Source: Crossaster papposus
Lineage: Eukaryota; Echinodermata; Asteroidea; Velatida; Solasteridae
Assembly (NCBI GenBank): GCA_037893245.1
Contig: JBAIAA010000025.1
Span: 2,418,001-2,482,000, forward strand
DNA length: 64,000 bases
Reading direction: 5' to 3'
The first letter of the stretch is position 1. Each line of letters begins with the position of its first letter. The notes beneath the pieces are model-generated. The model was not told the DNA's origin. It was given only the letters and a program-made list of their open reading frames with translations, and did not search any database. The position numbers and the translations under genes were made by a program. Below, one piece after another: positions 32,552-60,136 of the stretch.

Positions 32552-33355
32552 TCGTCACCGACACCACGAACTGGCACCCTCTGCATCACATGTGTACAAA
32601 AAATTCAAAAAATTCGAAATTGTTTTTATTGCTGAATATATCATTTTGTGCCATGAAGTATAACATGGCGAAATTGTTTTTTCTTAAATCATGTTAATTT
32701 GCTAATTTTTATTGGGGAGTTTTGCAGAAATTAGTCCATTCTGTCGTTTTTCGGTTCCACGAAGTGACACTGCACTCAGTGTCAGTTCGTGAAAACGAAA
32801 TTGCGGAGGCGCGCTGTGAAAAAGATTTCACGAACTGGCACTGTCTATACAACGTACCCAGGGCAATGTTGTATCACGCCGTGTATACGTATCACGTTTG
32901 TCTACGAAATAAATAGAACTCGATGTTGTCAACACGGCGGCACCCGAGCACTGTGTGCGCGCACTCCCCGAAAACGCGACAGTTTTCGTTTTCACGAACT
33001 GGCACCCGGCACTGTGTGCGCGCACTCCCCGCAAACGCGTCAATTTTCGTTTTCACGAACTGGCACTCACTCACTGCAATGTATGCGCGCACTCTCCGAA
33101 AACGCGACAGTTTTCGTTTTCACGAACTGGCACCCGTCTTAATCATTTAATTATTAATTAACTAACCATATTTTCACAATATAAAAATTGTGTTTCAGCA
33201 GTTAACGAATTGTTACGTTTAATGATACCAAAATCCCTCAAGTAGACGGATTTGTTGACTAAGTAAACTCGTGTCAAACCTTTAAAAGCGTTTTTCTCCG
33301 AATTTTATTTTTGTAACGGCGACCACTGGGTGTCAGTTCGTGGTGTCGGTGACGA
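32552..33355. mobile_element. Iteron element IE1 (CACGAACTGGCAC type)
   Basis: 804 bp with termini TCGTCACCGACACCACGAAC and GTTCGTGGTGTCGGTGACGA, flanked by TATA on both sides. It is absent from the opposite arm of the large inverted repeat, so it is an insertion. Internally a unit of about 62 bp (GCGCACTCCCCGAAAACGCG then ACAGTTTTCGTTTTCACGAA then CTGGCAC) is repeated three to four times at 32940-33135, with a further motif at 32826 and one inverted near 32776. No transposase. Confidence 0.9.
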
Positions 33356-34816
33356 TATATGCCCCATTGTTCATTGTACCTTATAAAATAAGCAAGAGCT
33401 CTCGTGACAGATGAGGGCACTGGACAGAAGATATTGATTGAAATCATGAACTTTAATTAAAAATCAAATCAAAATTACGTGTAACACTTAATATGTATTT
33501 GAGTCATGTTCTCAGTTTGCGATTTGAATGGTTACAAATTATGGAATCATTCAATTCCCGGCTGGACATTTCCATCTTGTTTCAATTTAAATCACTCAGC
33601 TGTTAACTTAGTTCTCTTCGGAAAGTCCTTCCTCTTCATCAGATGGTGCGACCTCTTGCCTTTCCTCACTCCCGTCAGTCTTCATTTCATCTTCTTCTAA
33701 TTAATTAAAAATTTAATTAAAAATCAAATCAAAATTACGTGTAACACTGTCACAATACTAAACACATTAATTACAATATTACACTGCACTGCACTTGAAT
33801 TGGAATGAATCTATGTTAATACAAGAACTATAAGGATCTGCTTAGTGTGACAAATTGCAAATATTGACCTATATATGATACAATAATGATCTACGTATTA
33901 ATCTCGAACAAGCTAGCCAGCCCATGCCTAAACATGCAAATACTTCTTTGAAGTACGGTGCAATATTGCAGTTACTGTATATTATTATTATTATATCTTA
34001 TAATCTTGGTGATTTATATTTCCCAAACATGTTATCCATGAATAAAGCTGCAGCGCCTTGCTTACATGGATGTAAGTTCCCGGGTGTAAGTTATAATAAT
34101 TTTTCAAATATATATGCATTTTAACTGGCAGACTATTATCATGTCAAAATGTACTGGTAGCTAAAGTACCATGGACATGAATAAACTCAAGTTGCATTTA
34201 CAGCAACTTTTATAGATGACTTCAATATAAGGACAAGATTAATGTGATTTAGTAAAGTAAGGAATAGCCTGTATCATAAATCGCTACAATTTTGTGTACT
34301 TCATGATTCATAATCCAGAAACTTAGCGTTTTAAAAATCATACTGAATCGGCAGAAGCCGACTATTTGCCCTGCGAACGAAGAATTGTGGCTGGCTGCAG
34401 TCTTTGGAAAATAGAGCATCTAGAAACTACATGTAGTTCGGGGGGTCTCCCCTTGGATAAGGGATCAGTTAGGTTTCTGTTCTACAAATATGTTCATAGC
34501 GTCATGTAGAGGACGAGGAGGTTAATACTGATTCTTGGTAAGCAACATTCATCATCAACCGCAGCTTATTAAGAAAAGATTATCAAAAAAGTGTGGAAAT
34601 AACCTGTAAAAGGTTTCCGTATTGTTTACGGTAAAGGTATGTAAATAGGACTATTTATTGTGAGTAGGCCTGGCCGTATAATTGCGAGTTACATTTTATT
34701 GGCACATGCACCGCCACAATGAAATATCTCTCCGTCTCCTTTAATTTGTTGTGATGCTTGTAGTTTAGAAGATTTTGTAAATGTTCTACTCTTAGCTATG
34801 CAAAACACCAATAAGC

Positions 34817-34984
34817 ATGATGTCAGGGTATGGATATACACTCCAATCTGGTTTGAACTTGAAGGACATCAACTACGTACCGCAAACCCTCGTAGAAGAA
34901 GATGAAATGAAGACTGACGGGAGTGAGGAAAGGCAAGAGGTCGCACCATCTGATGAAGAGGAAGGACTTTCCGAAGAGAACTAA
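34817..34984 (+). CDS. Small acidic ORF at the centre of the inverted repeat
   Basis: ATG ATG TCA ... TAA, 55 codons: MMSGYGYTLQSGLNLKDINY, then VPQTLVEEDEMKTDGSEERQ, then EVAPSDEEEGLSEEN. The last 29 residues including the stop are repeated, on the minus strand, in the left arm (33613-33699). The tail has 14 acidic residues in 29. Not recognised; it could be the C-terminal exon of a host or transposon protein captured by the inversion, or a small protein. Confidence 0.35.
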   Translation: MMSGYGYTLQSGLNLKDINYVPQTLVEEDEMKTDGSEERQEVAPSDEEEGLSEEN

Positions 34985-35711
34985 GTTAACAGCTGAGTGA
35001 TTCAATTTGAAACAAGATGGAAATACACCAGCCGGGAATTGAATGATTCCATAATTTGTAACCATTCAAATCGCAAACTGAGAACATGACTATAATACAT
35101 ATTAAGTGTTACACGTAATTTTGATTTGATTTTTAATTAAAGTTTATTTCAATCAATATCTTCTGTCAAGTGCCCTCATCTGTCACGAGAGCTCGTGCTT
35201 ATTTTATAAGGTACAATGAACAATACGGCATATAATAGACCTAGACACAGATACATGGTTACTGTACTATCCAGCTTAATAATAATGCGAGCAATTATTA
35301 AAATACACATGAAAACTCCGAAAAGCTCTTAGTAAATTAAACTTAATAAGGCCTCCTTTTCATGAGGAATAACTCAATAATAGCTTAAACATGCTTTCAT
35401 AAGTTGACCGATTTCTTATTCTTAAGCGGATTTGTGCATCAGATGGACACTTAAGAACGAGTTTTTCGTATTCTGGGTTGCCAGATGAACATGTTGACAT
35501 AAGTTTGGTGGACGTACTCGATCATACCGATACAATTATAAACACGTGGTGGGTCAAAAAGGTACACTTTTTAGGCTTAATTGCATGTTTAAGCCATGAA
35601 AACACCAACAAAATACTACTTTAACAACTGGTCCTTGTCCACAATGTTTAGACCTTCACATTAAACCTTATTTCAATCCTCTACCCCATGTGGTTCTGGA
35701 GAAATGGCATA

Positions 35712-35964
35712 TGTGACCCGCTCCATCGTAATCAGGAATAAGTCGCTGAGGCCGTTTTACGCAATCGACCGTTAAAGTGAATGCATGGGTGAAAATCGTG
35801 ACCAAGTATTTGTGTGTGCTGTCCGTATGATTTTGGTCAATTTTGTTTATTTCAAAAGCTGTTTTTCTCGGAATGTGGATTCGGCAAATAAATATACACC
35901 TGTCATATTCATCAGACCATAACTTTTTTGAGACTTATTCCTGATTTCGACGGAGCGGGTCACA
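35712..35964. mobile_element. MITE family M2, copy in right arm
   Basis: Same element as 31917-32175, in the opposite arm, cleanly flanked by TA (35710-35711, 35965-35966). It was present before the inverted duplication formed. Confidence 0.88.
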
Positions 35965-36299
35965 TATTCCATCGTTCCCGAAAACGTAATTAGGTCAATT
36001 ATCGATCCGACCCATTCTTAAGTGGATTAGTACATGGAGTTGAAACTTAAGAATTAGATATTCGTAATCAGGATATCTTGGAGTACATTTGAGCCAAAAT
36101 GTGTCCTCGTACGTGACAATACCATGTTTTACCAGAGTAAATCATGTGTGAGACGGACGTACGTGTTCTGTGAATCCTCTGCCAAAATCGTCATCACTTG
36201 GCCTATAAAACTCTTCTCGGTCATCTGATTTATATTATAACCGAACATCCGTGATCTTCTTACACCCAAGAACGTAAGAAAGCTCAGATTTGTGAATTT

Positions 36300-37130
36300 C
36301 TGCCATCAAAAAGGCCAAAAAAAGACAGAAAAGTTCCAGCTACTGTCGAAGAATCGGACGATACAGGCTTCGCGCCAGGTCATGTGACCCGGTCGTCAAA
36401 CCATCAGACCCAGCGGCCGATTACACCAATGCCATCGCAGCACTACGGCTGGAAATCAAAGGGCTGGCAGCCGATTTGAATTCCAAAATGGACAAAGCAA
36501 TCCTCAACCAAGAGAAACTCCTGAATAGAATAACAGGTGTTGAGAAACAAACAGCAGGAGTTGGAAGAATCGCTGGGCTTTTCTTCCAAATCGATTGAGG
36601 AAATGCAGTCGAAGCAGGAATCTATGACAGAAAGGATCTCCCGGTTAACCATCGAAATGCAGACGGCGAAAATGAAAATAAGTAATCTCCACGAAGCTAC
36701 CCTGAAACTGGAACGGCATTCTCGCAGCTACAATCTACGCTTCGTCGGAATTCCAGAATCCCGGTCGGAGAATGCTGCATTTCCCTACAATGAGGTAAAA
36801 AAGATTCTTACCGAGAAATTTCAAATGCCAGATGAGGCCGAGGTCGAAAATGCCCACAGAATCGGACGTGCTCCCCAGTCCCCCACTGACAAGCCGAGGC
36901 ACATTCTTGCCAAGTTCATTTATCGTCCGGAGCTGCAATCCGTCCTGACCCGCGCCAAGACAGCGCTAGTGAACACAGGAATCTTCACCATGCGAGATCT
37001 CCCAGCTGAAGACGTCAAAACAAAAAGATTTCTCTGTGACATAATGAAGAAGGCCCATGAAGAAGGTAAACATGCCGTCTTTCGTCGAGGCATGTACATC
37101 AATGGAGTGAAATACATCTCTCCGTCATGA
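36300..37130 (+). mobile_element. L1/Tx1-type LINE ORF1 (coiled coil plus RRM-like domain)
   Basis: An N-terminal piece (ALRLEIKGLAADLNSKMDKA, about 36440) is in one frame. The main open frame 36537-37130 is in another, so one frame change separates them. The main part has a coiled coil (EEMQSKQESMTERISRLTIE), then the hallmark LERHSRSYNLRFVGIPES, then VENAHRIGRAPQSPTDKPRH and LAKFIYRPELQSVL, ending YINGVKYISPS. This is the layout of L1-like ORF1 RNA-binding proteins. No ORF2 follows; downstream are T-runs and a poly-C tract. Probably a truncated LINE. Confidence 0.8.
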
Positions 37131-37369
37131 ACAAGTTGCAACGACGTAACAAGTAACTACATCCATACAAAGGCCAAGGTTGTTTTTTTTTTTGTTTTTT
37201 TTGTGGTGTCGATTCACGTGGATTCACAGTAAGTTAATTTGTAACTTTACTACTTATTGTCCTTGTCTCTGTTTATTTATCTACTTATTAGTGTAGTGTG
37301 TTCTTCTCTCAGTAAACAATTCCTGACAAATGCTTCAATTTAGATTGTGTTTCAACTTTCATTTGTACA

Positions 37370-37377
37370 CCCCCCCC

Positions 37378-37409
<32 letters not shown>
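37370..37409. repeat. Poly-C tract
   Basis: About 40 bases, all C but for one A. On the other strand it is a potential G-quadruplex former; its length is unreliable in assemblies. Confidence 0.95.
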
Positions 37410-37839
37410 ACTTTACGTACATGTACGTGTACCACTACTAACGCGCGTTGAATGTGTTAATTTTTAACTGGTACACGGTCCGTTGTTAACGTGCAACGTT
37501 AGCGTACACCGCGCAACATGCAGTATTTCCGCAAGGGCGATTTGGGCATGCTGCCAACTTTCCGCAAATAACGCGGGAAAGAAAATTACTGGATTCACTT
37601 TTCGTCTGCTGCTGCCGGCCTGCACTGAGCATGCGCCGTACAATTGTACGCGTACCGTACCGCGGCGGCGTATGCAATGCCTTTGAGAAAGATGTTATGA
37701 TCGAAACGTCAAGCCCTCTTTTAAGATTTGTATATTTCAGGTCACTTTAGTCAGCAAGCAGTTTGAAACAGCTTTCGGATATACTTTATGTATATAATTC
37801 GTTACAATTTAACCAATTTAATTCGAACATGATCATCCA

Positions 37840-38563
37840 CAACGTTATTAATTGGTTTTCAGGACAACCTTAATCCGACGTTTGGTTATGGCCGGCTTAG
37901 GGTAATAACATGATGATTAAAAGCCTATTACGTCAATGCGACGTCTGCTTAATGACGTTCATAATTGCTTATAATACCAACCTTAATCGGACGTTTGGTT
38001 AGGCTATGGTCAGCTTGTGGTAATAAAATGATGGTTAAAAACTTACATTAAAATGACGTCTATGCAACGTCTGATCAATGACGTTAATAATTGGTTATAA
38101 TACCAACTTTAATCAGACGTTTGGTTATGGTCAGTTTGTGGTAATAAAATGATGGATACAAACTGACATTAAAATGACGTCTGTGCAACGTCTGATCAAT
38201 GACGTTAATAATTTGTTATAATACCAACCTTAATCCGACGTTTGGTTATGGTCAGCTTGTGGTAATAAAATGATGGTAAAAATCTGACACAAAAATGACG
38301 TCTTATATGCAACGTCTGCTCAATGACGTTATTATTTGGTTATAATTCTGCCTAAAATTTTACGTTCATTTTCGGTCACATTTCAGTTATCTTGGTCGCG
38401 ACCAACTTTCAACCATACTACGACGTCAATATGACGTTATAAACTTACCTCGAATTCTTGTCGCCAATCGGACGTTGTCTTTTGGTCACTATTCAGTAAT
38501 CTGACGTCGCGACTAAAAATAAACCATAACATGACGTCAGAAAGACGTCGTGTGCCTGCTGGG
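37840..38563. mobile_element. One end of a DNA transposon with GACGTC subterminal repeats
   Basis: Four copies of a 112-126-bp unit (AATCCGACGTTTGGTTATGG, then GTGGTAATAAAATGATGG, then AACGTCTGATCAATGACGTT) run from 37840 to 38345. They are followed by denser GACGTC/AACGTC words and a sharp right end GACGTCGTGTGCCTGCTGGG at 38563. Read inward that end is CCCAGCAGGCACACGACGTC, a terminus type I recall from non-autonomous DNA elements. No matching left terminus found. No coding. Confidence 0.6.
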
Positions 38564-38797
38564 GACAGGGTGAGAACAGACCCCATCGGGAAGTCTGGTA
38601 TCGACCTACCAAGGGGTGAAGGTCGGTTACAAAAAACAGAAATCCCTGAAGTAGAACCAGAGTCAGCGGAGTTGGAGACAGAAAACCAATACGCTGAAGA
38701 TATCAACACCAAAGGGTATAAGACACAAGTGTACCATAAGAGTCCACCGAGACGGTACCCAAAGCGGACTCACAGGCTGCCCTTGCGCTATCAATAA
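38564..38797 (+). mobile_element. Possible LTR retroelement fossil (C-terminal pol-like tail)
   Basis: The open stretch ends PPRRYPKRTHRLPLRYQ, the arginine- and proline-rich tail style seen at the C-terminus of Gypsy-type integrases. Only this end is recognisable, so the element is broken and the call is tentative. Confidence 0.35.
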
Positions 38798-38894
38798 ATC
38801 ATACAAAAATGTATTTTTCAGAGGTTTACATAGTGCCTAGGCTTATGAGTCTTTTCTTTTGTATTTTGACATGATAAACAGAGAGGAGAGAAAA

Positions 38895-39329
38895 TATAAA
38901 AGAGAGTAGGAACAGGTCCTTCAGGTGCCGGGATTGCCCGATGACCTTCCCATTTCGGCAAAGGCGTTGGCGCCACATCCGGGAGACACACGGGCCAATC
39001 ATGTACCGTACCTGTATTGCAGACAGTGTTCATACAGAGCAACTAGGAGAGACCGTGCAGAGGCACTACTCCTCATTTCACAGTAAGAAGGTGCATGAGG
39101 TGGAGAAGATCCAATGAGAGCAGGAAAGGAAGGAAGAGGAGGTTTTTCCAAGGAGGCATGGAAAGGTGCGAAGCCTTAAAAACCCACCGCCCGCAACAGC
39201 GACCAGAGCCCCGCCTCAGGCGATGACACCGCGGTACGGGAGAATTCGGCCAGAGGTGAAAGTGATGTTCGGGTGCTGAGCCTATCTCCCTGCCAAATAT
39301 CTCCCCTGATGGCTATCTCGTCCCCGGAG
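38895..39329 (+). pseudogene. C2H2 zinc-finger coding sequence, 5' part
   Basis: Two C2H2 fingers: FRCRDCPMTFPFRQRRWRHI RETH (C-x2-C-x12-H-x4-H), then YLYCRQCSYRATRRD with QRHYSSFH, the second running across two frames. A Lys/Glu-rich linker and a Pro-rich stretch (NPPPATATRAPPQAMTPRYG) follow. No start codon assigned. The reading resumes on the far side of the hAT element at 45204. Probably a decayed host or element-borne DNA-binding protein; no family recognised. Confidence 0.55.
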
Positions 39330-39445
39330 CAGGGTTGTAGTCGAGTCCCTGCAAGTCCTTTCACAAGTCCTTTCGTGAAGCCAGTCACAAGTTCCTTCAT
39401 AAAGGCAGTCACAAGTAACTGGATGAACAATGACAAAGAAATGCA

Positions 39446-40963
39446 TGCCTATGCACTCAAAACTCGCATCCCTTTTCAACAAATCTCGCATTCCTTTTTT
39501 GGCCTGGCCTAGCTACCGTGCCTAAATACAATGTATATGCACTTAAAACTCGCATCCCTTTTCAACAAATCTCGCATCCCTTTTTTGGCCTGGCCCTATC
39601 GTGCCTATATACAATTTTTATGCACTTAAAACTCGCATCCCTTTTCAACAAAGCTTGCATCCTTTTTTTGGCCTGGCCCTACCGTGCCTATATACAATGT
39701 TTATGCACTTAAAACTCGCATTCCTTTTCAACAAATCTCGCATCCCTTTTTTGGCCTGGCCCTACCGTGCCTATATACAATGTATATGCACTCAAAACTC
39801 GCATCCCTTTTCAACAAATCTCGCATCCTTTTTTTGGCCTGGCCCTACCGTGCCTATATACAATGTTTATGCACTTAAAACTCGCATCCCTTTTCAACAA
39901 ATCTCGCATCCCTTTTTTGGCCTGGCCCTACCATGCCTATGCACTCAAAACTCGCATCCCTTTTTTGGCCTGGCCCTACCGTGCCTAAATACAATGTATA
40001 TGCACTCAAAACTCGCATCCCTTTTCAACAAATCTCGCATTCCTTTTTTGGCCTGGCCCTACCGTGCCTATTTTTATATACAATGTTTATGCACTTAAAA
40101 CTCGCATCCCTTTTCAACAAATCTCGCATCCCTTTTTTGGCCTGGCCCTATCGTGCCTATATACAATTTTTATGCACTTAAAACTCGCATCCCTTTTCAA
40201 CAAAGCTTGCATCCTTTTTTTGGCCTGGCCCTACCGTGCCTATATACAATGTTTATGCACTTAAAACTCGCATTCCTTTTCAACAAATCTCGCATCCCTT
40301 TTTTGGCCTGGCCCTACCGTGCCTATATACAATGTATATGCACTCAAAACTCGCATCCCTTTTCAACAAATCTCGCATCCTTTTTTTGGCCTGGCCCTAC
40401 GTACCGTGCCTATATACAATGTTTATGCACTTAAAACTCGCATCCCTTTTCAACAAATCTCGCATCCCTTTTTTGGCCTGGCCCTACCATGCCTATGCAC
40501 TCAAAACTCGCATCCCTTTTTTGGCCTGGCCCTACCGTGCCTAAATACAATGTATATGCACTTAAAACTCGCATCCCTTTTCAACAAATCTTGCATTCCT
40601 TTTTTGGCCTGGCCCTACCGTGCCTATATACAATGTTTATGCACTTAAAACTCGCATCCCTTTTCAACAAATCTCGCATCCCTTTTTTGGCCTGGCCCTA
40701 CCGTGCCTAAATACAATGTATATGCACTTAAAACTCGCATCCCTTTTCAACAAATCTCGCATCCCTTTTTTGGCCTGGCCCTACCGTGCCTAAATACAAT
40801 GTATATGCACTTAAAACTCGCATCCCTTTTCAACAAATCTCGCATCCCTTTTTTGGCCTGGCCCTACATGCCTATATACAGTTTTTATGCACTTAAAACT
40901 CGCATCCCTTTTCAACAAAGCTCGCATCCCTTTTTTGGCCTGGCCCTACCGTGCCTATAAACC
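39446..40963. repeat. 83-bp satellite array S83, copy a, with higher-order repeat
   Basis: Unit: CCTATATACAATGTTTATGC, ACTTAAAACTCGCATCCCTT, TTCAACAAATCTCGCATCCC, TTTTTTGGCCTGGCCCTACC, GTG (83 bp), with a CTCGCATCCCTTTT word twice per unit. A shortened unit recurs (39933, 40489). The block 39601-40100 is repeated at 40153-40650 with the same private variants. Open frames through the array are an artefact of the repeat. Confidence 0.97.
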
Positions 40964-43867
40964 TGGAATTTCACTTGTTTATTCTCATCAACCACAGTGT
41001 CTACTGCTCTAACAACTCCTATACGTGTTTTGGGTCGCAGAATAAAACCCGACGTAGATATGTTGTCGATTCTGACTGGAAAAGTACCATCAAGTTTCAC
41101 AAGTGTTGATGCTGTCAAAATACCAACAGGAAGGTGGTCAGAAGACCTCAAAGGTTCTACTACTGCAATCTGGGATGGAGATAGGCCCCTAGTTTCTGCC
41201 ATAACCGTTACTGTTGATTCTGGTGGGATAAAGATGTTCTCACTACAGGCAACCTTCGCAAACCCGATGACTTCCTGTTTAGCCTTCTGTGTCAAATTGT
41301 TACAAGACAGGACTGAGGTAATAAATGAAAGTGAAGGAGAATGGGCTACATTGCTTTCGTCTATAGCTTCGACGAGTGATAGCAAAATATTCATGCCAAG
41401 TAAACCTGGTATTTGTCTCTTCTGTTCTTTGTGTTCTTCGTCAACTGAATCTTTAACTACGAGGATGCCAACCTGTGGGATTAATATCCCCTCGATCTCA
41501 ACATCAACTTCAATGTAACCAACGTATGGTATTTCGAGACCATTGGCGGAAGTAATTCGTAACCATAGATTGTTACTTTGTATCTGGGTATCATTAGGGT
41601 TAAATAAGGACTTAAAGCCTTCTTCAGTAAGGGTTGTTACCATAGAACCCGTATCGACCAGACACTTGACATCTTTTCCACCAATGTTGGCCACTATTGT
41701 TGGACAAGTACCTACAAAGCGATGATTCAAAGGACCTGTCGAGTCCACTCTCTGCCTCCCTACCGATGGACTCGGAACGGGGGGAGGGTCTAGTTTCCCG
41801 ATGAAGACTTTTCACCGACTTCTCTCCTCAGCTTCTCAATAGTCCCCTGTGCCTCTTTAAGTTGGAGTTTAAAGCACCTATCAATTGTATGACCAGTTGT
41901 CTTACAGAAATCACACTTCATCCTACTTCTACCTTTGCGATCTGTGTTTTTGTTGTGATCCTCTTTTATTATGTGCTCATGTACCAGGTTGGTAATCTCA
42001 TCAATTTGTTTTTGTTGTTGCTGTATTTGTTGTTGTTGTTTGTGAACAATGTCAGTCAATGTTTTTGTTTCTGCCATGAAACTTGTTCTAGCTGTCTGTA
42101 TAGTGGTTTTCTGTTGTGGCGTACTAAGCTCATCAGCCCAATTGATAGCTTCAGACCTTAATGTGAGAAATTCAGTAGATTGCTGCCTTGTGGCTTGTGT
42201 ATCGTTTGACTCATCAGCCCAATCAATAGCTTCAGACCGTAGGGTGAAAAAGTCAATTGTTGGGGTGTCTTTAACTCTTTTCCTCAAGGTCTTTCTCAAG
42301 AGGCTGTCAGACACACCATCCGCAAATTGGTCACACAAAACCTGCTGTTTGTGAGTAGTCAGGTGTGGTGATTTTCTACTTGCCCTATCAAAAAGATCTA
42401 AGAGAGCATGAGAGAAATCTCGGATATTTTCGCCTTCTCTTTGTTTTCTTTCGAAAAAAGATCGCTGTAAATGAACTGAAGACCCCTGGTCACCAAATAC
42501 TTCTCTAAGAATGCGAAAAACATCCTCGACCTTTTTCCTGGGTCTAAATTTTACTTCTTCCCTAGCTGGCCCAATTAAGTGTTGAAAAACGAAATCCACT
42601 TTATCTTCTTCAGACAAAGGGCGAGACCGAATTGTTGCCTTGACGTCACAAATCCAGTCTTCTAGTTTCAACAAAGCATCGGGTGAACCTGAGTAAGATG
42701 CAAGCTTTTTCTGACTAGGCATAAGTAAGAATGCTGGATTAGGTTTAGGTTTAGACTCTATGGTGGCTGCTTTAAGTTGATCTTGTAATTTCTGTATCTG
42801 AGCCATCATGTCAAATTCATACGTCTTTTTGACTGGCGTCCAAGTTTCTTTATCCCCAGTAGCCATTGTGGCATATACATTCAAAGACTTCTGCTGATTA
42901 TGGGGAGAAAAGGTTAGTACATGTCCAATCCCAATCAAAATTACAAGCAATGCGAGCAAGCAATCAGCAGGAATTACCTTAACCGAAGCGGTTTTAAGGG
43001 ATATGCGCGTCATGTATACGGATGAGCTGTACATTCGCGGACTACAGGCGAGTAGCAAGTGGATTGCCGTTGATTGTGGGGCGGGGAAGAGGCATGTGGT
43101 GCAGAAGACACAACTGTCCCGTACCGTTTGGCTTTCACCTGCAGAATTTATAAAAAGGGAAAAATACCTACGACGGAGTCGGTAATGGTTTAGAATACAA
43201 TAAATTCTTACACCTACTTTACCACTTCAATGCTCACCTAAAAAAATTCAGGTTAAATGGGATTATCTTCCAAAGCCTTACAACCTGGCAATCACTGAAT
43301 GTGATATGGCTCACAAAATCCCCAACAACGTGCACATATATTCAAGGATTAGGAATATCGTTTAAAGCAACTGTTTTGTGGATATTACCAATCGGGTTAT
43401 TGACACGATACAATGTCAAATATGAGTTTCACGATTATGCAAATTCATTTAATATGCAAACAAATTCCATACAAATTGTGCACAGCCCAATATATTATTA
43501 GAAGTAAATGCACATAAAAGTTCTTGAAAAGTGACGAATTGTTACCAGTCCCTCTATTTTCAGCTTCCGGTCCGTGAACGATGAGGTGCTGTAAACGTCT
43601 CAGGAGCGGGCCACATTCACTAAAATGTTCATCAATGTGGTAGAGTAAACACAACTGATGCTGGTGGAGGCCAATAGTGGTCTTCTCAAGTCGGGATAGA
43701 AAGGCAGCTCACTACAGCTCACTGCAGCTCAAACACGGACGGTAGTTCCAAGGTTTTCGGTTCTCAGGTTGGCGGTTGATATTGCCACGCCCAGATGTTA
43801 AAAGTAATGACTGTCGTTTGTAATTAGTTCTCAAAATAATTTGTCACTGATCCTGCCGACTACGCCA
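40964..43867 (-). mobile_element. Ty3/Gypsy-type LTR retroelement fossil: gag, protease, primer site
   Basis: On the minus strand, from high to low coordinate, come: a primer-binding site at 43867-43850 complementary to the 3' end of tRNA-Ser including CCA; a leader of about 1 kb; gag from about 42866 (MATGDKETW) with a CCHC knuckle (CDFCKTTGHTIDRC); and an aspartic protease (CLVDTGSMVT, later PGLLGMN). Parts of the 5' LTR should lie directly above 43868, but I could not fix its limits. RT, integrase and the second LTR are not here, so it is broken. The gag and protease frames are largely open, suggesting moderate age. It sits within the 83-bp satellite. Confidence 0.85.
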
Positions 43868-45092: not shown

Positions 45093-45203
45093 GCAAGTGT
45101 CGAAGCTGATTTGAATAGCTTGTGATCTGAATTTGAACTGGAGGACTTATGATGGACTTGCGGGGACTTTCAGGGACTTGTGATGGGCTCGACTACATCC
45201 CTG

Positions 45204-48910: not shown

Positions 48911-48914
48911 TTAA

Positions 48915-49316: not shown

Positions 49317-49854
49317 TGCAGAGGCTAAATAGATTAACACGTCAGCTAACGTGCAAATTCTATTGCTAAATAGAGCAAGGTTATATTGATCATGCAGTTC
49401 TGTAAAATGGTGTTTGGATGTATTATTGCATAATTGTAGTCAGTAGATTAATTTTGCAATATTGTGGCCCGTTTGTTCTCATAATATGGGGCATTGTTTT
49501 TTGTGAAGTTATAATAATATAATATAATCTCGATTTGTAGTGAAGTATGTCTGCTCGTATACTATGGTGAGGAAATTGTATATACAAAACAAGGAAAACC
49601 TCTCGAAAACGTGACATGATAAAGTTCTTAGGAAGACTTCAAAGGAAACTAAAACGATTGAAGTTGGATCGAGTCGAGCCCGTTGTATCATCAAAAATTA
49701 TATAACTGACATATAGATCCGTGTTATTAATTGGTGGACAAACTAGTGGGTCTATAGTGTGTGCATGCATGGAATAATAAATGGACTAAATTTTAATAAG
49801 ATGAGGTAAGATGAATAATCAAACATTTTTGTATAAAAACTAAAACCGTTTTCT
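49317..49854. other. Non-coding, no gene seen
   Basis: AT-rich, nothing recognised. Confidence 0.5.
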
Positions 49855-51236
49855 ACAAATCTCGCATCTCTTTTTACCTGGCCCTACCGTGCCTATATAT
49901 ACAATGTACATGCACTAAAACCTCGCATCCTTTTTCTCGCATCCCTTTGTTTACCTAGTCCTACCGGGCTCCGTGCCTATACAATGTGTATGCACTTAAA
50001 AAACTCGCATCACTTTTCTCAAAATCTCGCATCCCTTTTTGGCCTGGCCCTACCGTGCCTATGCACTCAAAACTCGCATCCCTTTTCAACAAATCTCGCA
50101 TCCCTTTTTGGGCCTGGCCCTACTGTGCCTATATACAATGTTTATGCACTTTAAATTCGCATCCCTTTTCTACAAAGCTCGCATCCCTTTTTTGGCCTGG
50201 CCCTACGATGTATACGACTTAAAACTCGCATCCCCTTTCTACAAATCTCGCATCCCTTTTTTGGCCTGGCCCTACCGTGCCTATATTATACAATGTATAT
50301 GCACTTAAACTCGCATCCCTTTTCTGCAAAGCTCGCATCCCTTTTTTGGCCTGGCCCTACCGTGCCTATATACAATGTTTATGCACTTAAAACTCGCATC
50401 CCTTTTCAACAAATCTCGCATCCCTTTTTGGCCTGGCCCTACCGTGCCTATGCACTCAAAACTCGCATCCCTTTTCAACAAATCTCGCATCCCTTTTTTG
50501 GCCTGGCCCTGCTGTGCCTATATACAATGTTTATGCACTTAAAACTCGCATCCCTTTTCAACAAACTCGCATCCCTTTTTGGCCTGGCCTTACCGTGCCT
50601 ATATGCACTCAAAACTCGCATCCCTTTTCAACAAATCTCGCATCCCTTTTTTGGCCTGGCCCTACTGTGCCTATATACAATGTTTATGCACTCAAAACTC
50701 GCATCCCTTTTCAACAAATCTCGCATCCCTTTTGGGGCCTGGCCCTACCGTGCCTATGCACTCAAAACTCGCATCCCTTTTCAACAAATCTCGCATCCCT
50801 TTTTTGGCCTGGCCCTACCGTGCCTTTGCACTCAAAACTCGCATCCCTTTTCAACAAATCTCGCATCCCTTTTTTGGCCTGGCCCTACTGTGCCTATATA
50901 CAATGTTTATGCACTCAAACCTCGCATCCCTTTTCAACAAATCTCGCATCCCTTTTTGGGCCTGGCCCTACCGTGCCTAAATACAATGTATATGCACTTA
51001 AAACTCGCATCCCTTTTCAACAAATCTCGCATCCCTTTTCAACAAATCTCGCATCCCTTTTTTGGCCTGGCCCTACTGTGCCTATATACAATGTTTATGC
51101 ACTCAAACCTCGCATCCCTTTTCAACAAATCTCGCATCCCTTTTTGGGCCTGGCCCTACCGTGCCTAAATACAATGTTTATGCACTTAAAACTCGCATCC
51201 CTTTTCAACAAATCTCGCATCCCTTTTTTTGGCCTA
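49855..51236. repeat. 83-bp satellite array S83, copy c
   Basis: Same unit and orientation as 39446-40963 but with more length variants (units lacking the TATATACAATG part, one doubled half-unit at 51010-51050) and more substitutions at the left edge. Short ORFs across it are artefacts. Confidence 0.96.
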
Positions 51237-51353
51237 ACTAGTTCAGTTAACCTACACATGAAGTAAAGTTTTAATTTTGTTTGAGAACACGATTACGCCT
51301 ATAGTCCAGAAAAAAAAACGTTTCGTTTTTGTTCTATTACGAAGCTAATATAC

Positions 51354-51715
51354 ATTACCAGCACGTTGTCGTGAAAGTTGGTACCTTAATATTTCTACAC
51401 AAAACCCCCGACACCAGGGGTTTTGTGTACACACCTTATCAGCTTGATCAGACGGTTATTTACGACCCCCATGACAGCGGCCAAGCCGCAAGCCTGGGAG
51501 ATGCCTTTTCCAGCTCCGACTGCATGACCACAGTCTTACAATATTATTGCATATATACATGTACATGTACATGTACTTATAAGGTGTACAAATTCTATGT
51601 ACTTGTACAATTTACATGTGGTTGTAGAAACTATGCACATATGCAAGATGTACTTTGTCAAGCTTCAAGCATTGAGACTTATCCCACCCGTGAAGTCAAA
51701 TACATATTTGTTATT
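51354..51715 (+). repeat. Dispersed repeat family B, copy 1 (uninterrupted)
   Basis: Recurs inverted at 61040-61783. It contains an internal hairpin (ACAAAACCCCCGACACC / GGGGTTTTGTGT) and a TACATG microsatellite patch. The frame KVGTLIFLHKTPDT then YDPHDSGQAASLGD is shared by both copies but ends soon after, so coding is doubtful. At 51671 it shows the unoccupied site of the M1 MITE present in copy 2. Confidence 0.85.
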
Positions 51716-53087
51716 GATTCTTAACAATTGTTCATTCCTTTTCATAACGTACTGTATAGCATAGAAGTCTAAATAATTAGTAGGTTCCAGAAAAAGGTCC
51801 CTAGAATGAAAACTACTTGTAAAAAATCCATTTATCTATTCTGAATTGTTCACCAAATAACTGTAGTGGCAATTGAACTGTTGCTGGCAGTACAAAGGAA
51901 ACAAGTTGCACTTTTTTTCTGGTTGTATCCTTGAATTTCTATCAAAAGAAATAATTCTGATAACAAAGTAACGTATAGCAAACCATGATCAAAGGCAGAT
52001 ATCTGTAGGGAAATTACAGTTGTAAGTTTTAAGATGAATCACAGGTCCTTTGTGTTGTCAGGGACACACGCCTACGACATCTATTATAATCACAGTAGGT
52101 GAATTAAACTGCTTGAACTGAAAAGCAATGAACCTCGACCATGACGATGGCAGTTATTTATGCTTACGGCGGGCGGTTGTAGTCGCTTTATTATTCGACT
52201 TTTTTCAAAGAGGCGACTATTTATTACCGCTCGGCTCCGGTGATACCTTTGTATTTTACCAGCTATGTGAATAGTACTGCGTTCACACACTTCCCAAACG
52301 TAATATAAAGGTTTACGTCCTTTCATTTAAACTAGTCATGCTTTACACCAATTCCTGATGTTTTACTCTGCAAGATTGTTCCTAATTATAAAATCTAGAC
52401 TGATAAAATATTATCGACGTGGCCCAAATTTCCCCTTTTTTTTAAGATTTAAAAAAAATATATATTTGCGGTTCCTCGTAAGAAACTAAACTCTGCGCTG
52501 TAAAAGATTATTGCTATGAAACATTTCTGCCACTCGAAGGCAATTACCCCTATCCCATTCATGTTTTTTTTATCTATTTGTTTTAGTCACTAATATCAAT
52601 TTAAATTGAATTTATTTTCAAATCTGCTTTACTGCATTACGACATTAAATTAAATAAGACCAAAGTTAATCTGCGGAGACTGAAGACGCCCCAAGATTTG
52701 TACTCATTACATGTGTATAATAAATGTATGTCCAACTACAAACTTTGCAGTTTGCATCAACTCCTTACAACTTCATATCCTTGAAGCCTTTGATGGGTTA
52801 TCCAATATATGGTATGTGTGTGTTCACTGCATGTGGTGACTGGTAAATTAACATCAACAGTATTGGTAGATATAAACAAGCTGATTGTTGTATAAAGACA
52901 GCTGTGGTTGCTGTAGGCCAGGATGTGAAGTCCCTTGTGTAATCAGTCAGTACGCATGCAGCGCGCGTTCGTTTGGTTTGCAATGTATTGCAACGATAAA
53001 ATGAATATTCTTGAGATTGGATACCACATTTAAAATTGTAAGGGTCTTTAAAACAGCAATTGTATTAACAAATGAAGTACGTGTAGC
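51716..53087. other. Non-coding, no gene seen
   Basis: Unique-looking AT-rich DNA; no gene or element recognised on either strand. Confidence 0.5.
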
Positions 53088-54095
53088 CTTATTATTATTA
53101 TTATTCTGGTTTATTCGTATTAAAACACGAGGTAGGCAGCCACAGAAGAGTAGCTGAAGTGACCACGTTTACACTTTACAAGAATTAAAAATTGTTACAT
53201 AGCAGTTAAAAAGAGTGGAAGTATAAAATTACACAAAGTACTCACTTGCACCTATATTGTAAACAATTAAGAATTACAAAAGTTTAGCTAAAACAGGAAT
53301 TGTGGACTTCATGTATCTATCAGTTTTGCACTTGGGTATAACAAGCGTAGACGTGGAACTGTTTCTGAGTATTCTGGTGAGTTGTGTTATTCAATTTAAG
53401 AGGGGGGGAGCATATTTCTAAATCTGTTGGAATGTAATAGTTTAGTGCCAAAGTTATACAGTAAGGTGTCTCTCCTAGTTTCAAGGCTAGACATACCTAG
53501 AACTTCCAAAGCATTGGAGTAACTATGATATCGATGATAGCCTAACATAATGCGACAAGCACGTTTTTGTACATTCTCAATTCTATTAGCCAGTTGTTTA
53601 CTTATCGAGGTATGCCAGACTTGGCTGGCATACTCTAAAACTGGTCTAATGTAGCATGTAAAGACGGAAACTAAGTCAGTCAAGGGGGCGTCATATTTTG
53701 TAAAAATACATAAGGTAAATAATTTTCTAGAGGCTCTAGAGACAATATCAGCAACATGAATGTCCCATTTGAGATCACTCTGAATCGCGACTCCCAACAG
53801 TTTCATATGATTAACCTTGTTTAGGGATATGTCATTAAGAGTAAACATGGGGTTAGGTGTAACTCGTCGTAGGAAACTGATCTTCATTACTTGACATTTA
53901 GCAGGTTTGGGGAGAACATCGTTAGCTTTGGACCATTCTGAGAGATCATCAAGATGGGATTGAAGTTGAGCATTTTCACCATAATTAACTATATCCCCGA
54001 GGGTCAGGTCGTCCACATATTTCCAACGTTTATGGCTTCCAATAGCAGCATCGTTAACTAGGACCAGAAATAGTATAGGGCCTAACTTATCGTTT
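53088..54095 (-). mobile_element. CR1/Jockey-like LINE, 5'-truncated
   Basis: The minus frame 54093-53396 is open through the RT catalytic box (KYVDDLTLGD) and the following blocks (MKLLGVAIQSDLKWDIHVAD, IRPVLEYASQVWH, RRDTLLYNF) to the stop. A 3' UTR follows, then an AATAAACCAG(AAT)n tail at 53090-53110. 5' truncation falls just upstream of GPILFLVLVND. The long open frame suggests a fairly young copy. Confidence 0.88.
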
Positions 54096-55072
54096 ACAAG
54101 AAATAAAAAAAAGAACTATTTTGAGAGATATAAGGATCGCGAATGTATTCTTTAACACTAGTTATCCTACACAGTGTAGATACACGCTCGAGTACATGCA
54201 CTCTGGTTTGTACACAAACCGTCAGTACATATGGTTCATGCCGGGGGGGGGGGGGGGGGGACGGAGGGGGGCCCTTCGAGGCTGCGATTGCGAAACGCTG
54301 TGATAACGTCCATTTTCAAAATAGGGGGTAACAATTTTTTCATGCGAAAAATAAAGAGTTTTTGGCATCCAATCTTAACATCTTGTCTTTTGTAGTTGAT
54401 AAAAATTGTTATTTACCTTAATTTTTATCATCCAATGACAAAAATTGTATTGAAAATGAAAAAGCAGTCGAAAAAAATGAACATTGACGTACCGTTGATG
54501 CACGTGTTGGGCCAATATTGTTCACAATAAATCTTTGGGCATGGGCCAGGCAGGCACATGTTAAAGTCGGGCGACTTTACTCCGCGTTTACCCTACGTAT
54601 AAGCCTGTGTGGAGCAGGGGACCCGACATGCGAAAGCGCCCTTGAGTTTAGTATAACAATGCATGAATGGTCAAAATTATTGGTCAACCAACCAGGTCGT
54701 TTGGGGATTTGACCAATGGGGACAGTGCAATCATGGCTTTTACGCGCTTTGATCTGAGCGGCAAGAAAACACTTTTGCGTGGGCTGTGATCTGACTAGAC
54801 CGTGTGGCGCCACCCTTGACCGAAAAGCAATCAACCTCTGCTGTGACAATGATGAAAAGATGTTTACGCTTTCCAGAACTCGTGGGGCGAAACTTGTTAT
54901 TCAATTTTATTCAAAAAGGGCAATTGTTTGCATCTTTCGACGGAAGTTGGTTGTATTGCATTGTAAAGCTGCATTGATGTAAAGTCCTTTGTTATCCCGA
55001 GCATCACTGGATATGGGACCGGCTTTCGTGTAAACTCGGCTTTCGTGTTCGAGGTCACTGCATGAAGCTTTT
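54096..55072. other. Non-coding with a poly-G tract
   Basis: 54243-54260 is an 18-base G run (possible quadruplex). No gene; short ORFs show no family features. Confidence 0.5.
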
Positions 55073-58000
55073 GTACAAAAACAGATCGACTCGATGGCAG
55101 TGGGAAAAGCAACAGGCCTTGATGGCGTAGGCCTAAGTGTAAAGATCCTAAAGGTTGCTTGTCCATATGTAGTTAACTCGTTAACGTATATATTAAATTT
55201 CTCAATAAGAAGTGGTCAATACCCTAATGCTTGGAAACATGCTTCTGTAATTCCAATACATAAAGGTGGGGACAAAGGTTGTGTTAATAACTAGTATCGG
55301 CCAATTTCCATTCTTCCGATTGTCTCAAAAATTATGGAGAGGGCCGTGCACGATCTGTATTCCTACCTTGATGAAAACCGTTTGATCTCCCCTTGCCAAT
55401 CAGGTTTCAGACCCCTGCATTCAACATAAACCATTCTGCATGGATTAATTGATAATTGTCTCCGTGCAGTAGAGCACGGGAAAACCACTGGCACTGTTTT
55501 TATTGATCTGAGCAAGGCTTTTGATTCAGTAGATCATACACTGTTAAAAAACTGGGCAAAATAGTACTGGGTAAACTCAATCAGCCAATTGTTGGTGAAA
55601 TGTTGTTCAACTATTGAGTACATTTGATAGTTGGGTAAGCAAAAACATCGACAACGTAGTTAGTCATGTTAGCTGGGCAAACATTGCCCAACTATGTTGT
55701 ATTATTATTTTCTTTGATCCAACCACGAATTGTTGGGTAGAAAGTGGAGTAACAATCTCAACAGATGGACATTACGGTATGACGTTATCAAATTGTTGGG
55801 AATGTTATCGTCGTGCACACGCCATTTTGTCGGCCAGACATAATGCAGCCTATATCCTGCAGCAGTAGCCGACCATGAACAAACAACTGAGAGGCAATGG
55901 CGTTTTATCAAATGCCGAAGTTATAGAAGAGCGAGGCATAAACGCCTCGGTGGACGTTTTGTGTAGGTGAGAATTGTACATGTGTCATAGTTTATAGAGA
56001 GAAATTATTATACAGGAACGAGTGTGCCTGTTTGAATGTGTATGGACCAGAACTGAAAGTTGCCCAGTACTGAGTACAGCTAACGTTGTGACGTGCTTAC
56101 CACACAATACCGCATTGAAATGCTATAGAACTATTTCGTATGAACTCAGTGTTATGGTGTCCCAAAGTCTTAATCCTCCAGTTGGCAACACATAAATCAT
56201 TACTTGTGAGGAATAACCCACCCCCAATATTTTGGGACATAAATATTAACATTAAAAAACACGTATAGAACTTACATGGTTTGGGCCTTTCCTTTCCAAA
56301 TATTGGGAACATGTGCTCCTATTTCCTCCCAAGATTGGGTATAATCTCACATGTTCCTCAGACAGTGAGTATTTTGCTCTTCCAAAATGTTGGTTAAAAC
56401 GCTCTCGTGTTCCCAACAATTTGTTCCTGTTCTCTCAAACTAAGGCATTTTCTTTCTTAATACATAAAGACATGTGCTCCAAGAGTTTGGAATGCATGTT
56501 ACTTTCTTCCCAAGGATTGGTGGTGAACTATAGTATACTAAAAGTTCTTTTATTGTTTATTTTTGATACAGAAGATATCCAACTACTTTTTCCACAAGCG
56601 TCTTGACTCACAAATGTCTTCGTTTTCATCGAGAAGCTAGGCCCATCCACAACCGTATGTCTGTCAAAAAAGACATAGATGTTTGCTGAAAACCGGACTT
56701 TTCCCTCGATTGCGAGTATCAACAACAACTAATCCAAGGGGGTTGGACCTTCTTACAGACGTATGTTTGCAACAAATAACCTGCTGCTTCTAAGAACCTT
56801 TGTTTGCCCACGTTAATGCTACAAAACAAGTCGACCCTGAGGCAGCCTCAAATAACATTGCAGTTGGTTCTGATGAGAGGTAGAATGCAAAATGTTCTTT
56901 GGAATGAAACATGATGTTTACTCTCTTTTTTCTATTTGTAAGACGTTTGAAGAAAACCTGTCTTAAGTCTAAGAACCCCAAAACGTGTTGATTGCGAAAT
57001 TACATGGGGAAAATTTGCTTTTAAGACGACATTTTTCATTGTTGTGTTTGTATGAGACTTGTCCTTTCAATGTTGTATTGGGTTCTTGCAATATTAGTCT
57101 TTTGAAAGAGAAAGTAAACAGCTTTTGAACGTTTTATTTTTACAGATTGATAATGAAGTTTGCAATAAAATATACAAAAAGAAGCCTCGTTTTCAAGCTA
57201 TCCCTTATTTAGGCGTACCGCAAACACCAACAATTGGTCAAAAATATGCCCTAAATTTGAGAAAATCTGTACAATATATTACCCAATTATTGAGAGAAAA
57301 ACACTAACCAACAACTGGTTACCAACGTTTCACCAACAATTGGTTCTTTACATTTACCCAACTCATGGGTGATTAAAAGTATCCAACTGTTTTGTCTGCA
57401 ATATTACCCAACTTTTAGGTACATTTTTTGCCCAACAGTAGTTGGAACTGTTTTCGCTCAAAAGCTGGGCATGTTGACTATTGTACCAACGTTGGGTAAA
57501 AATTGGGCAAAAAAATACCCTTTTTTTCTTGCAGTGTAATATTTTATTGGAGAAGCTACAATTGATGAATTTGTCTGCGTCGGTTATGACTTGGTTTAAG
57601 TCATATTTAACCGATCGCAAACAATCAGTTTGCATTAAAAAACGCTACTCTGGGGATCTACCTCTCAGAACTGGCGTTCCATAAGGATCAATTTTGGGAC
57701 CTTTGTTGTTCATAATTTACACAAAATATCTCACGATGCATTCCCGAAAACTGCCAAATGCACATGTACACAGACGACTCCACAATAACATGTAGCTCCT
57801 CCAGCCGAGATGAAATAGAACGTAGCCTTAACACAGCAATGGCAAATATTAATGATTGGGTTGCCCAAAATAGGTTAACAATTAACGCTACCAAAACTAA
57901 GTCTATGGTCATCGGCTCTAAACACAAGGTAGCTTCAACCCACCTTAACATTGTTATTAATAACGATCAGGTCGAACAGGTTACGTCATTCAAGTGTTTG

Positions 58001-58415
58001 GGTGTTATCATTGACGATTCACTAACATGGTCTCCTCATTATTGATTATATAAAAAACATAGTTTCTTCTAAACTAGGCATGTTAAGTAGAATTCGCCAC
58101 ATCATCCCGAAAAGCAGTCTGCATACTTTGGTTAAAAGTTTTGTAATACATGTACCGAGTTTGGACAATTGCTGTACGGTTTGGGGAGGCAGATACAATG
58201 CACATAATAACTTGCTCAACCGACTGTTAAAAAGAGCCGCCAGATTAATCCTTGGTTGTCCATATCTAACTGCTTCGAGTATGTTTAATGAACTACCTTT
58301 TGCCGAGAGAATCTGTTTCAAAAAAGGTATCCTAGTGTACAAATGCATACATGAGTTATGCCCAGAGTACATGGGTCACATTACACGTCATTCCACACAC
58401 TTTTTTGCTCGACCC
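55073..58415 (+). mobile_element. CR1/L2-like LINE RT, interrupted by a 2-kb DNA transposon
   Basis: RT pieces in order: GKATGLDGVGLSVKILK (55100), NAWKHASVIPIHKGGDK (55230), YRPISILPIVSKIMERAV (55297), FIDLSKAFDSVDH (55500), then after the insertion NILLEKLQLMNLSASVMTWF (57539), LRTGVP.GSILGPLLF (57665), FKCLGVIIDDSLTWS (57990), LLNRLLKRAARLILG (58215), KKGILVYKCIHELCPEY. Several stops and frame changes make it inactive. The 3' end is overrun by the inverted-repeat element starting near 58437. Confidence 0.85.
55539..57536. mobile_element. 2.0-kb DNA transposon, CACTG termini, TA target
   Basis: Begins CACTGTTAAAAAACTGGGC and ends TTTTTCTTGCAGTG, flanked by TA on both sides (55537, 57537). 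GTTGGGTAA / TTACCCAAC words are repeated near both ends. Possible captured or transposase exons on the plus strand: 55875-55966 (ATG in context GACCATGA; VLSNAEVIEERGINASVDV; then GTGAGA) and 57146-57307 (after TTTTTACAG; IDNEVCNKIYKKKPRFQAIP). No catalytic triad recognised. Family uncertain; CACTG with TA flanks does not by itself settle it. Confidence 0.75.
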
Positions 58416-58436
58416 CCTCCGATTTCGATGAAATTT

Positions 58437-60136
58437 GGTGTGTGGCTAGGTACTCATGAGAAACTCTGATACGCAAAATGTTAGCGAAATTCGGTCATTT
58501 TTTGTATAGGAGCTGGAGCAGTTTGAAGTTGTAGGGTGTTTTGCCGCAAGAACCCATCAATCTACCTAAAAATGGCCAAATACCCCTACAGAATGGTTTG
58601 ATCTCAGCAAGTGAGGTATCGTTGGAAAAAGCACAAAATTCTCTATCCACCTTTTTTATTCGTGAGATAGTTAACCATACATGGCGCACACGACTTCAGG
58701 AGAAAAATGACTTTAACGACCAACAAATCGTCACCGACACCACGAAGTAGCACTCGACCATTATTAGTAAGACAAAAACTATTATATTTTAAATTCTACA
58801 ATTTAAAAAGTTAATTATTATGGTAAATAGGTTAATGAGTGTAAGTAAAATAACGCGGTTTGGTGGATTGTTCGTTTTCACGAAGTAAAACTCTATAGTG
58901 TTACTTCGTGAAAACGATTCTGAGCACTTTGCATGTCTGTGTAGTTCCACGAAGTGACTCTTTACTCTCGTCCCCAGGGGTACACGCACATGTACCACCA
59001 GACGGACATTTTACAGTGTACATGAATTGTACGCGCGCTCAATCAGTGCATTACGACGCTCTACGGTCATTATTGAAAACGACGTTGCATTCAAAGATTT
59101 CGTTTTCACGAAGTAGCACAAGCACTTGTGTGCGCGCACTATACGTATTTCCTGCAGATTTCGTTTCCACGAAGTAGCACTGAGTTGTATGTGCGCGCAC
59201 TGTACGGTTTTCCTGCAGTTTTCGTTTTCACGAAGTAGCACTGATAATATCTTTGTGTACGCGCACTGTACGGATTTTCTGCAGATTTCGTTTTCACGAA
59301 GTAACACTCTTCTTAAATCTTTAATTAATTCGTAATTAATTAACCCATGGAAACATAAGTAACACATTCACGACGTTTTAATGTAGTACTTTATATAAAT
59401 CCCAAACAGGTTTTCAATTCACATTTTATTTGCGGGATAATAACTTGCAAACATTCAAACGCGTTTATCTTCAAATCAAAACTATTCGCTGTGTGTACAT
59501 GAGTGCTACTTCGTGGTGTCGGTGACGAAATGTGTAACATCACTCCTATGAATGCGGATACAGTCACAATTATCAACTATTATGCATGTACATGTATCTC
59601 GATCTCGGTAAACCGAGGCGGGCATTGAAAATACCGAGATCGAATTCAAAAATACATGCATAATAGTTGATAATTGATACTGTATCCGCATTCATAGGAG
59701 TGATATTACACATTTGTTGGTACATGTAGTTAAAGTCATTTTTCTCCTGGAGTTGGTAATTGCCCAAGCTGATTTTTCGTGTGCGCTATGTACAGTTAAC
59801 TATCTCACGACTACATCAAAACCGGAGCATATACTTTTGAGATAATTGAGGTCAAATGGCAAGGTCACCTTAAATGACCCAGATTTGGGTCAACACATGA
59901 AAGCATGTCAAGTGACATATTGGTGGATAGAGAATTTTGTGCTTTTTCCAACGATACCTCACTTGCTGAGATCGAACCATTCTGTAGGGGTATTTGGCCA
60001 TTTTTAGGTAGATTGGTGGCCGGGGTTCTGGCCGCATAACCCCCTAAAACTTCAAACTGCTCCAGCTCCTACAAAAATGACCGAATTTCGCTAATATTTT
60101 GCGTATCAGAGTTTCTCATGAGTACCTAGCCACACT
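58437..60136. mobile_element. Inverted-repeat element, 1.7 kb, with arms over 300 bp
   Basis: Outer ends GTGTGGCTAGGTACTCATGA and TCATGAGTACCTAGCCACAC. The arms pair through AGGAGCTGGAGCAGTTTGAA and GTGAGGTATCGTTGGAAAAA to the central ATGCATGTA/TACATGCAT near 59580-59655. The left arm holds an 801-bp insertion (IE2). About 110 bp (59800-59925) is present only in the right arm. No coding. Confidence 0.88.
58728..59528. mobile_element. Iteron element IE2 (CACGAAGTAGCAC type)
   Basis: 801 bp with termini TCGTCACCGACACCACGAAG and CTTCGTGGTGTCGGTGACGA, flanked by AA on each side. The intact opposite arm reads straight through CCAACAAATGTG, so one AA is the duplication. Inside, TTTTCGTTTTCACGAAGTAG then CAC is repeated about every 60 bp (59098-59306), with divergent units at 58876 and 58949 and one inverted at 58900. 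No transposase. Confidence 0.9.

Follow-up and report, generated by a model that had tools for sequence, protein, structure and literature searches.

Location and structure of IE1 and IE2

The 64,000-nucleotide stretch of Crossaster papposus DNA analysed here (the window; contig JBAIAA010000025.1, positions 2,418,001 to 2,482,000 of the forward strand) contains two short elements, IE1 and IE2, that share their ends and carry end-like sites in their interior. Both are non-autonomous DNA transposons bounded by terminal inverted repeats (TIRs), of the kind known as miniature inverted-repeat transposable elements (MITEs). They are very probably non-autonomous members of a cut-and-paste family, with the DUF7869 protein of longer elements with the same ends as the most likely enzyme. 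The two elements and the empty counterpart of the IE2 site are located as follows.

32553..33354, + strand: IE1, non-autonomous TIR transposon, 802 bp, with 18-bp TIRs and ATAT on both flanks
58729..59527, + strand: IE2, non-autonomous TIR transposon, 799 bp, with 18-bp TIRs and AAAT on both flanks (locus L042)
59645..59765, - strand: other arm of the inverted repeat that hosts IE2, with uninterrupted CAACAAATGTGTAA, the empty site for IE2

These bounds are corrected to CG...CG ends, the termini reading CGTCACC...GGTGACG in IE1 and IE2 alike; CGTCACCGACACCACGAA opens both elements and its reverse complement closes both. The first-pass annotation had correctly placed the two elements and its listed motif copies and had given the elements 19 terminal bases in common. 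The ends do agree, but the outer T/A belongs to the 4-bp target duplication, which is ATAT around IE1 and AAAT around IE2. IE2 is hosted by a long inverted repeat, and after removal of IE2 and one AAAT from the near arm the two arms align with 91 of 95 bases identical and 6 gap positions. The intact site in the opposite arm shows IE2 to be an insertion that duplicated 4 bp of its target; a 2-bp (TA) duplication is ruled out by the 4 bp seen in the flanks. No open reading frame (ORF) of at least 150 amino acids is found within IE1 or IE2. The MITE-like assignment thus combines TIRs, a target duplication of fixed length, the lack of a transposase gene inside and the presence in the genome of coding relatives with identical ends.

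The 15-bp motif TTCACGAANTRRCAC, with at most one mismatch, occurs 12 times in the window (six in IE1 and six in IE2, with 0.11 expected) and nowhere in the window outside the two elements, and none of 100 shuffles reached 12 occurrences. The ends and the inner sites have a 13-bp core, CACGAANTRRCAC, in common.

Layout of the end-like sites

The sites are named below by the tail that follows the CACGAA word, and the inner sites are numbered as slots from the left end.

32553..32577, + strand: IE1 left end, CGTCACCGACACCACGAACTGGCAC
32758..32770, + strand: IE1 inner slot 1, GTGACAC form
32779..32791, - strand: IE1 inner slot 2, inverted, CTGACAC
32829..32841, + strand: IE1 inner slot 3, CTGGCAC
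32948..33136, + strand: IE1 tandem array of three units with 61- and 67-bp spacing, each with a TGTGCGCGCAC-like palindrome and TTTTCGTTTTCACGAACTGGCAC
33330..33354, - strand: IE1 right end, CTGACAC after CACGAA
58729..58753, + strand: IE2 left end, GTAGCAC
58879..58891, + strand: IE2 inner slot 1, GTAAAAC
58898..58910, - strand: IE2 inner slot 2, inverted, GTAACAC
58948..58960, + strand: IE2 inner slot 3, GTGACTC
59107..59307, + strand: IE2 array of four sites (GTAGCAC three times and GTAACAC) with spacing of 61, 61 and 66 bp
59503..59527, - strand: IE2 right end, GTAGCAC

The two elements can be aligned over their full length, their inner slots being largely homologous, and IE2 carries one extra array site; the last three of its four array sites are full tandem units. 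Units of about 61 to 67 bp are arrayed near one end in IE1, in IE2 and in the first coding family described below (fam1). The palindrome TGTGCGCGCAC(A) or a near copy is present in the array units of IE1 (32948-33136), IE2 (59129-59310) and the coding element L097 (about 5700-6020), and is possibly a second binding site.

Some readings of the first-pass annotation change at this level. The right terminus of IE1, given there as CTGGCAC, reads CTGACAC, and the copy near 32829 has the CACGAACTGGCAC core but is missing the TTTTCGTTTT prefix. Three copies are added to its list, at 32791 (- strand, CTGACAC), 58910 (- strand, GTAACAC) and 58879 (+ strand, GTAAAAC). The third form that it described, GTGAC, is borne out at 32758 and 58948 and is specific to these slots.

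Copies in the genome and target sites

The 1.02-Gb assembly, in 1841 contigs, was searched for further copies. The terminal 19-mer with at most two mismatches is found at 1355 places, versus 30 for a backwards control, and the best 40 of 674 candidate relatives of IE1 are all 99-100% identical. Among 100 exact ends listed there are 35 end pairs, the window elements included, of which 34 were analysed (28 IE1-like and 6 IE2-like, with C18:266958-267761 left out). Six of the 30 unpaired ends were read (L005-L008, L077 and L097), and another, C25:1670332, was placed by its coordinates beside a coding copy.

Identical 4-bp flanks surround 31 of the 34 sampled elements, and 30 of these 31 duplications are composed of A/T only: AAAT/ATTT 16 times, ATAT and AATT 7 times each, and AACT/AGTT once. 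The best-match loci (L009-L068) have identical 4-bp flanks in 58 of 60 cases, with ATGT, ACAT, TATT, TTGT and ACTT once each. These loci are not all independent, because one insertion site accounts for the 22 IE2 loci with the highest scores (L039-L060, among them the window copy), and a reading of the IE2 copies as independent insertions is rejected on this ground. Within the sample, L041, L042, L049 and L075 lie at one site, and L035 and L036 have common flanks. Divergence from the window copy is below 1% in eight of the other 27 IE1-like copies sampled and reaches 5.7% in the most distant one. The IE1/IE2 family is recently active.

A longer repeat contains IE2 (57228-61030, locus L042), with an IE2-type element at the same site in the 22 loci. 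In an ungapped comparison of 500-bp flanks, 5 of the 21 other loci are identical to L042 on both sides and 2 nearly so; the remaining loci diverge abruptly on at least one side. The window copy of IE2 has multiplied as a passenger of this longer repeat.

Several copies depart from the common structure. L083 (C72:1163391-1164992), an IE1 copy, measures 1602 bp, with some 800 additional bases inserted after slot 3 and ahead of the array. L082 (C349:1195459-1196863) consists of two IE2-like copies arranged head to tail with one right end in common, with TAAT before each left end and TAAT after the right end. One end variant recurs at C103:672387, 741116, 806606 and 862758, that is, every 56-69 kb, a spacing that suggests segmental tandem duplication.

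Two end dialects

Genome-wide, exact ends (CGTCACCGACACCACGAANNNNCAC), collected with a pattern of the exact end followed by NNNNCAC, number 649, of which 412 continue CTGRCAC, 224 GTARCAC and 13 otherwise. What separates the CTG from the GTA dialect is the identity of bases 1 and 3 in the 7-bp tail.

Of the 28 IE1-like copies, 20 have CTGGCAC at the left end and 23 have CTGACAC at the right end; slot 2 reads CTGACAC in 25 and slot 3 CTGGCAC in 24. Slot 1 has the GTGACAC tail in all 27 copies that keep it, as CACGAAGTGACAC in 26 and CACAAAGTGACAC in one. The array slots at 440 and 568 read CTGGCAC in 12 and 20 copies, respectively, and CTGACAC in 6 each. In the six IE2-like copies the tail starts with GTA in every slot but the window-type slot 3, which reads GTGACTC in four copies and GTAACTC in the other two; slot 1 is GTAAAAC in the same four, which represent one insertion event. 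The inner sites follow the dialect of their subfamily, with slot-specific exceptions. The first-pass annotation had proposed a tabulation of tails at ends and inside, and the association found in this way is strong but pseudo-replicated, because it derives from two founders and not from dozens of events.

Coding relatives with the same ends

The first-pass annotation had proposed looking for an autonomous relative that encodes a protein, and DUF7869 coding elements with the same ends were found, which are likely the autonomous partners. The rare end GTAACACAA leads to long elements. In one of them, L097, the C-terminal part of an ORF matches the Pfam family DUF7869 (E 3.9e-7, 30.3 bits, cut-off 26); the upstream part of the frame (L097:2-2900, + strand) consists of a long series of degenerate repeats with TPDPDKTYSAQTPVMAFGG-like motifs, as judged by eye. 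A genome search for the protein, in which 82 of 238 candidates were scored, gave at least 83 matches; 11 have 95-100% identity to the query. Searched with the DUF7869 model itself, the genome shows 177 matches, with 150 of 358 candidates scored, and 14 control genomes show none. The 11 near-identical copies make up fam1, and 10 of them have a GTAACACAA end on the 3' side of the DUF7869 segment, at a distance of 1.2-5.1 kb.

There are 11 exact GTAACACAA ends and 11 exact CTGGCACAA ends, and nine elements carry both, at a spacing of 8.7-23.1 kb, or 6.3 kb in the C538 copy. This decayed copy is one of the nine paired elements and lies outside the 11 protein copies. A full reading (L096 and L067) shows that it is flanked by an ATTT target duplication, that its frames are broken and that an IE2-like element is nested close to the right end.

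The fam1 ends carry GTAACAC on one side and CTGGCAC on the other, and the array carries CTGACAC. The pattern TTCGTTTTCACGAANTRACACCAA also admitted GTA, yet each of its 33 exact matches has CTG; 25 fall within GTAACACAA elements (10 of the 11, C538 being the one without), 3 are beside C616:81551 and 5 are elsewhere. With at most one mismatch there are 211 matches, and some of the 100 listed read GTGACACAAA or GTAACACAAA, away from fam1 copies. With a GTA end, a CTG end and a CTG array, fam1 is a counterexample to strict self-matching. IE1 read backwards gives a 173-bp alignment with the left end of fam1 (71%, E 3e-16), on which the subterminal layout of the two is judged homologous. A further form of the site, TTCGTTTTCACGAAGTGACACAAA, is repeated at places not near the listed coding copies (C31:72837, 95853, 1131967, 1494567 and 2126502, and C59:1094629) and may mark another family.

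A second coding family (fam2; C158 and C251) has proteins 67-68% identical to fam1, GTARCAC ends 10.8 and 11.0 kb apart and, in both copies, a distance of 1624 bp between the protein segment and the 3' end. C343 has one GTARCAC end listed, on the 5' side, and its 3' end is not an exact GTARCAC; the C669 copy lies outside the range of the ends listed. A search for GTA-type inner sites, with 100 of its 109 places listed, shows one in each of four further copies that are 57% identical (C553, C582, C693 and C791), at a distance of 1.9-2.0 kb on the 3' side of the protein segment and in the same orientation. The motif and its position thus appear to be conserved in more than one family. No CTG/CTG coding family was seen among the listed CTG ends (100 of 412, reaching C164).

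Origin of the match between ends and inner sites

The first-pass annotation held that each element keeps inner sites matched to its own ends, and offered either a subfamily-specific transposase or gene conversion as the cause, to be refuted by recent tandem expansion of one terminal copy in each element. The matching stands for IE1 and IE2 but fails in fam1, and where it is real it is mostly family inheritance. Similarity between tandem units is 87-92% in IE1, 82-84% for the last three in IE2 and 77-84% in the coding element, versus 64-73% when IE1 units are compared with those of IE2; the sequence around the first IE2 array site is unrelated, at 53-62% similarity to the remaining units of the arrays. 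Each lineage expanded its own unit, and neighbouring sites therefore carry one variant. Founder inheritance with tandem expansion accounts for the array, so that the refuting case is largely realised for the tandem units, but it leaves the termini and the other slots unexplained; the termini and slots 2 and 3 still require older homogenisation or selection. The inner sites could also be passive tandem repeats without a role in transposition, a view favoured by the tandem nature of the arrays and by the loss of units from some mobile copies. This is held to be quite improbable, given the core common to ends and inner sites, the CTGACAC arrays near the gene 3' end in fam1 coding copies and the one detected GTA-type site 3' of the protein segment in each of the four 57%-identical copies.

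Co-evolution, in which each dialect has its own transposase and selection keeps ends and iterons matched, is a somewhat unlikely account of the same pattern. It supposes that fam2 (GTA/GTA) drives IE2 and that an unseen CTG/CTG family drives IE1. Ends outside the two dialects are rare (13 of 649), fam2 has GTA at both ends in its two copies, and in the 34 sampled elements 7 of 8 IE1 slots and 8 of 9 IE2 slots are mainly in their own dialect, the exceptions being IE1 slot 1 (GTGACAC) and IE2 slot 3 (GTGACTC in 4 of 6). Against this, fam1 mixes the dialects, none of the 100 listed CTG ends (of 412) lies near the 83 listed protein matches when positions are compared, and, because the slots are homologous, about three lineages are compared and there is no statistical power. 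The proposed subfamily-specific transposase would suit IE2, through the GTA/GTA coding family, but has no CTG/CTG partner for IE1 among the listed CTG ends; co-evolution stays alive for IE2 through fam2, and subfamily-specific recognition of IE2 is possible. Gene conversion or gap-repair copying that keeps ends and iterons alike inside each element is a very doubtful explanation. The tandem units are similar within a lineage and the IE1 array slots at 440 and 568 alternate between CTGGCAC and CTGACAC among copies, but the left end, right end and slot 1 of IE1 keep their different tails in most or all copies at a divergence of up to 5.7%. Because slot identities are stable across copies, ongoing conversion between ends and iterons is unsupported and is rejected as a continuing process, and a conversion episode that predates each founder is possible.

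Comparison with known transposons

Several superfamilies are set aside by their target duplications or termini. Kolobok and Sola3 elements duplicate TTAA, which is seen in 0 of the 31 sampled duplications. EnSpm/CACTA elements, including Chapaev, have termini that begin with CAC and are rejected by the CGTCACC termini here. The hAT target duplication is 8 bp, in contrast to the 4 bp here, and no hAT domain was found in the coding-element segments scanned. Tc1/mariner, with its TA duplication, is rejected by 4-bp duplications such as AAAT and AATT.

Sola2 has 4-bp AT-rich AWWT target duplications and short TIRs (PMC3627910). The elements here likewise combine short TIRs with AWWT duplications (ATAT, AAAT, ATTT), AAAT/ATTT, ATAT or AATT accounting for 30 of 31. 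In contrast, end-like inner arrays are not mentioned for Sola2 in the excerpt of PMC3627910. The likeness to Sola2 concerns target duplications and TIRs alone, and the protein here matches only DUF7869. In the hAT element Herves a short transposase-binding motif is present in terminal and subterminal sequence (PMC3143072, with Ac, Tol2 and Tag1 in its references), and a short end motif is repeated subterminally here too. In piggyBat, subterminal enzyme-binding sites are reported to restrict activity (PMC11707139), and the subterminal sites here are putative binding sites. Membership in piggyBac, which makes TTAA duplications (PMC2872659), is rejected because none of the 31 sampled duplications is TTAA. 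The coral CMITEs are protein-less, and one family shares its TIRs with a coding partner (PMC2872659), as do IE1 and IE2; unlike these, CMITEs are about 100 bp long with TTAA duplications, and between CMITE families the internal region is more conserved than the TIRs. The layout is of a known kind, as subterminal transposase sites are known in other superfamilies (PMC3143072, PMC11707139), and the strongest form of the matching rule is contradicted by fam1.

Other features of the window

Retroelement gag-like remains occupy 40912-43058 (- strand), with PNMA (E 7.3e-8) and aspartyl protease (E 2.8e-8) matches in adjacent frames. An L1 ORF1-like RNA-binding domain (Transposase_22, E 3.6e-5) is present at 36537-37130 (+ strand).

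Proposed mechanism and significance

The first-pass reading of a transposon with end-like inner sites is upheld by the anatomy, the target duplications and the coding relatives with the same ends. In the proposed mechanism, the DUF7869 protein would bind the 13-bp core in the termini as well as in the inner sites, cleavage would require the outer CGTCACCGACAC, and the array would assist in loading or pairing the enzyme ahead of excision and of insertion at AWWT sites. Each subfamily would descend from one founder whose array had already been expanded by tandem duplication of a lineage-variant unit, and the CTG and GTA dialects persist, perhaps because tail bases 1 and 3 contact the enzyme. We infer that the DUF7869 protein is a DDE transposase.

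Several observations weigh against the assignment of IE1 and IE2 to a family moved by this protein. Matching 4-bp flanks are missing in 3 of the 34 sampled elements, one of the 11 fam1 protein copies (C616:81551) is without an exact GTAACACAA end, and the flanks of the coding elements were read in one copy, the decayed C538. Where they align with the fam1 end region, IE1 and IE2 show no more than about 70-74% similarity, which makes fam1 a cousin and not the direct parent. A single-sequence AlphaFold model of the DUF7869 segment has a mean pLDDT of 31.6, and a PDB sequence search with the protein gave no matches up to E 10. An NCBIfam search gave no matches, a Pfam search of two other coding-element segments gave no families for either, and viral contigs gave two pattern stretches and no relative by tblastn. 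Literature searches found no mention of DUF7869, nor of GQNKN together with transposase.

An unlikely extension is that DUF7869 marks a transposase group, unnamed in the papers searched, with two site dialects, in which IE2 would belong with the GTA/GTA coding family in a single specificity group and fam1 would be a two-dialect group that also moves IE1. If true, the ends and subterminal arrays would record single-base switches in the DNA specificity of a transposase. These results connect DUF7869, a domain of unknown function, with a transposon family that has been active recently and has hundreds of ends in one genome. The two dialects in about three lineages provide a natural set of site variants in which a joint change of specificity in transposases and arrays could be tested.

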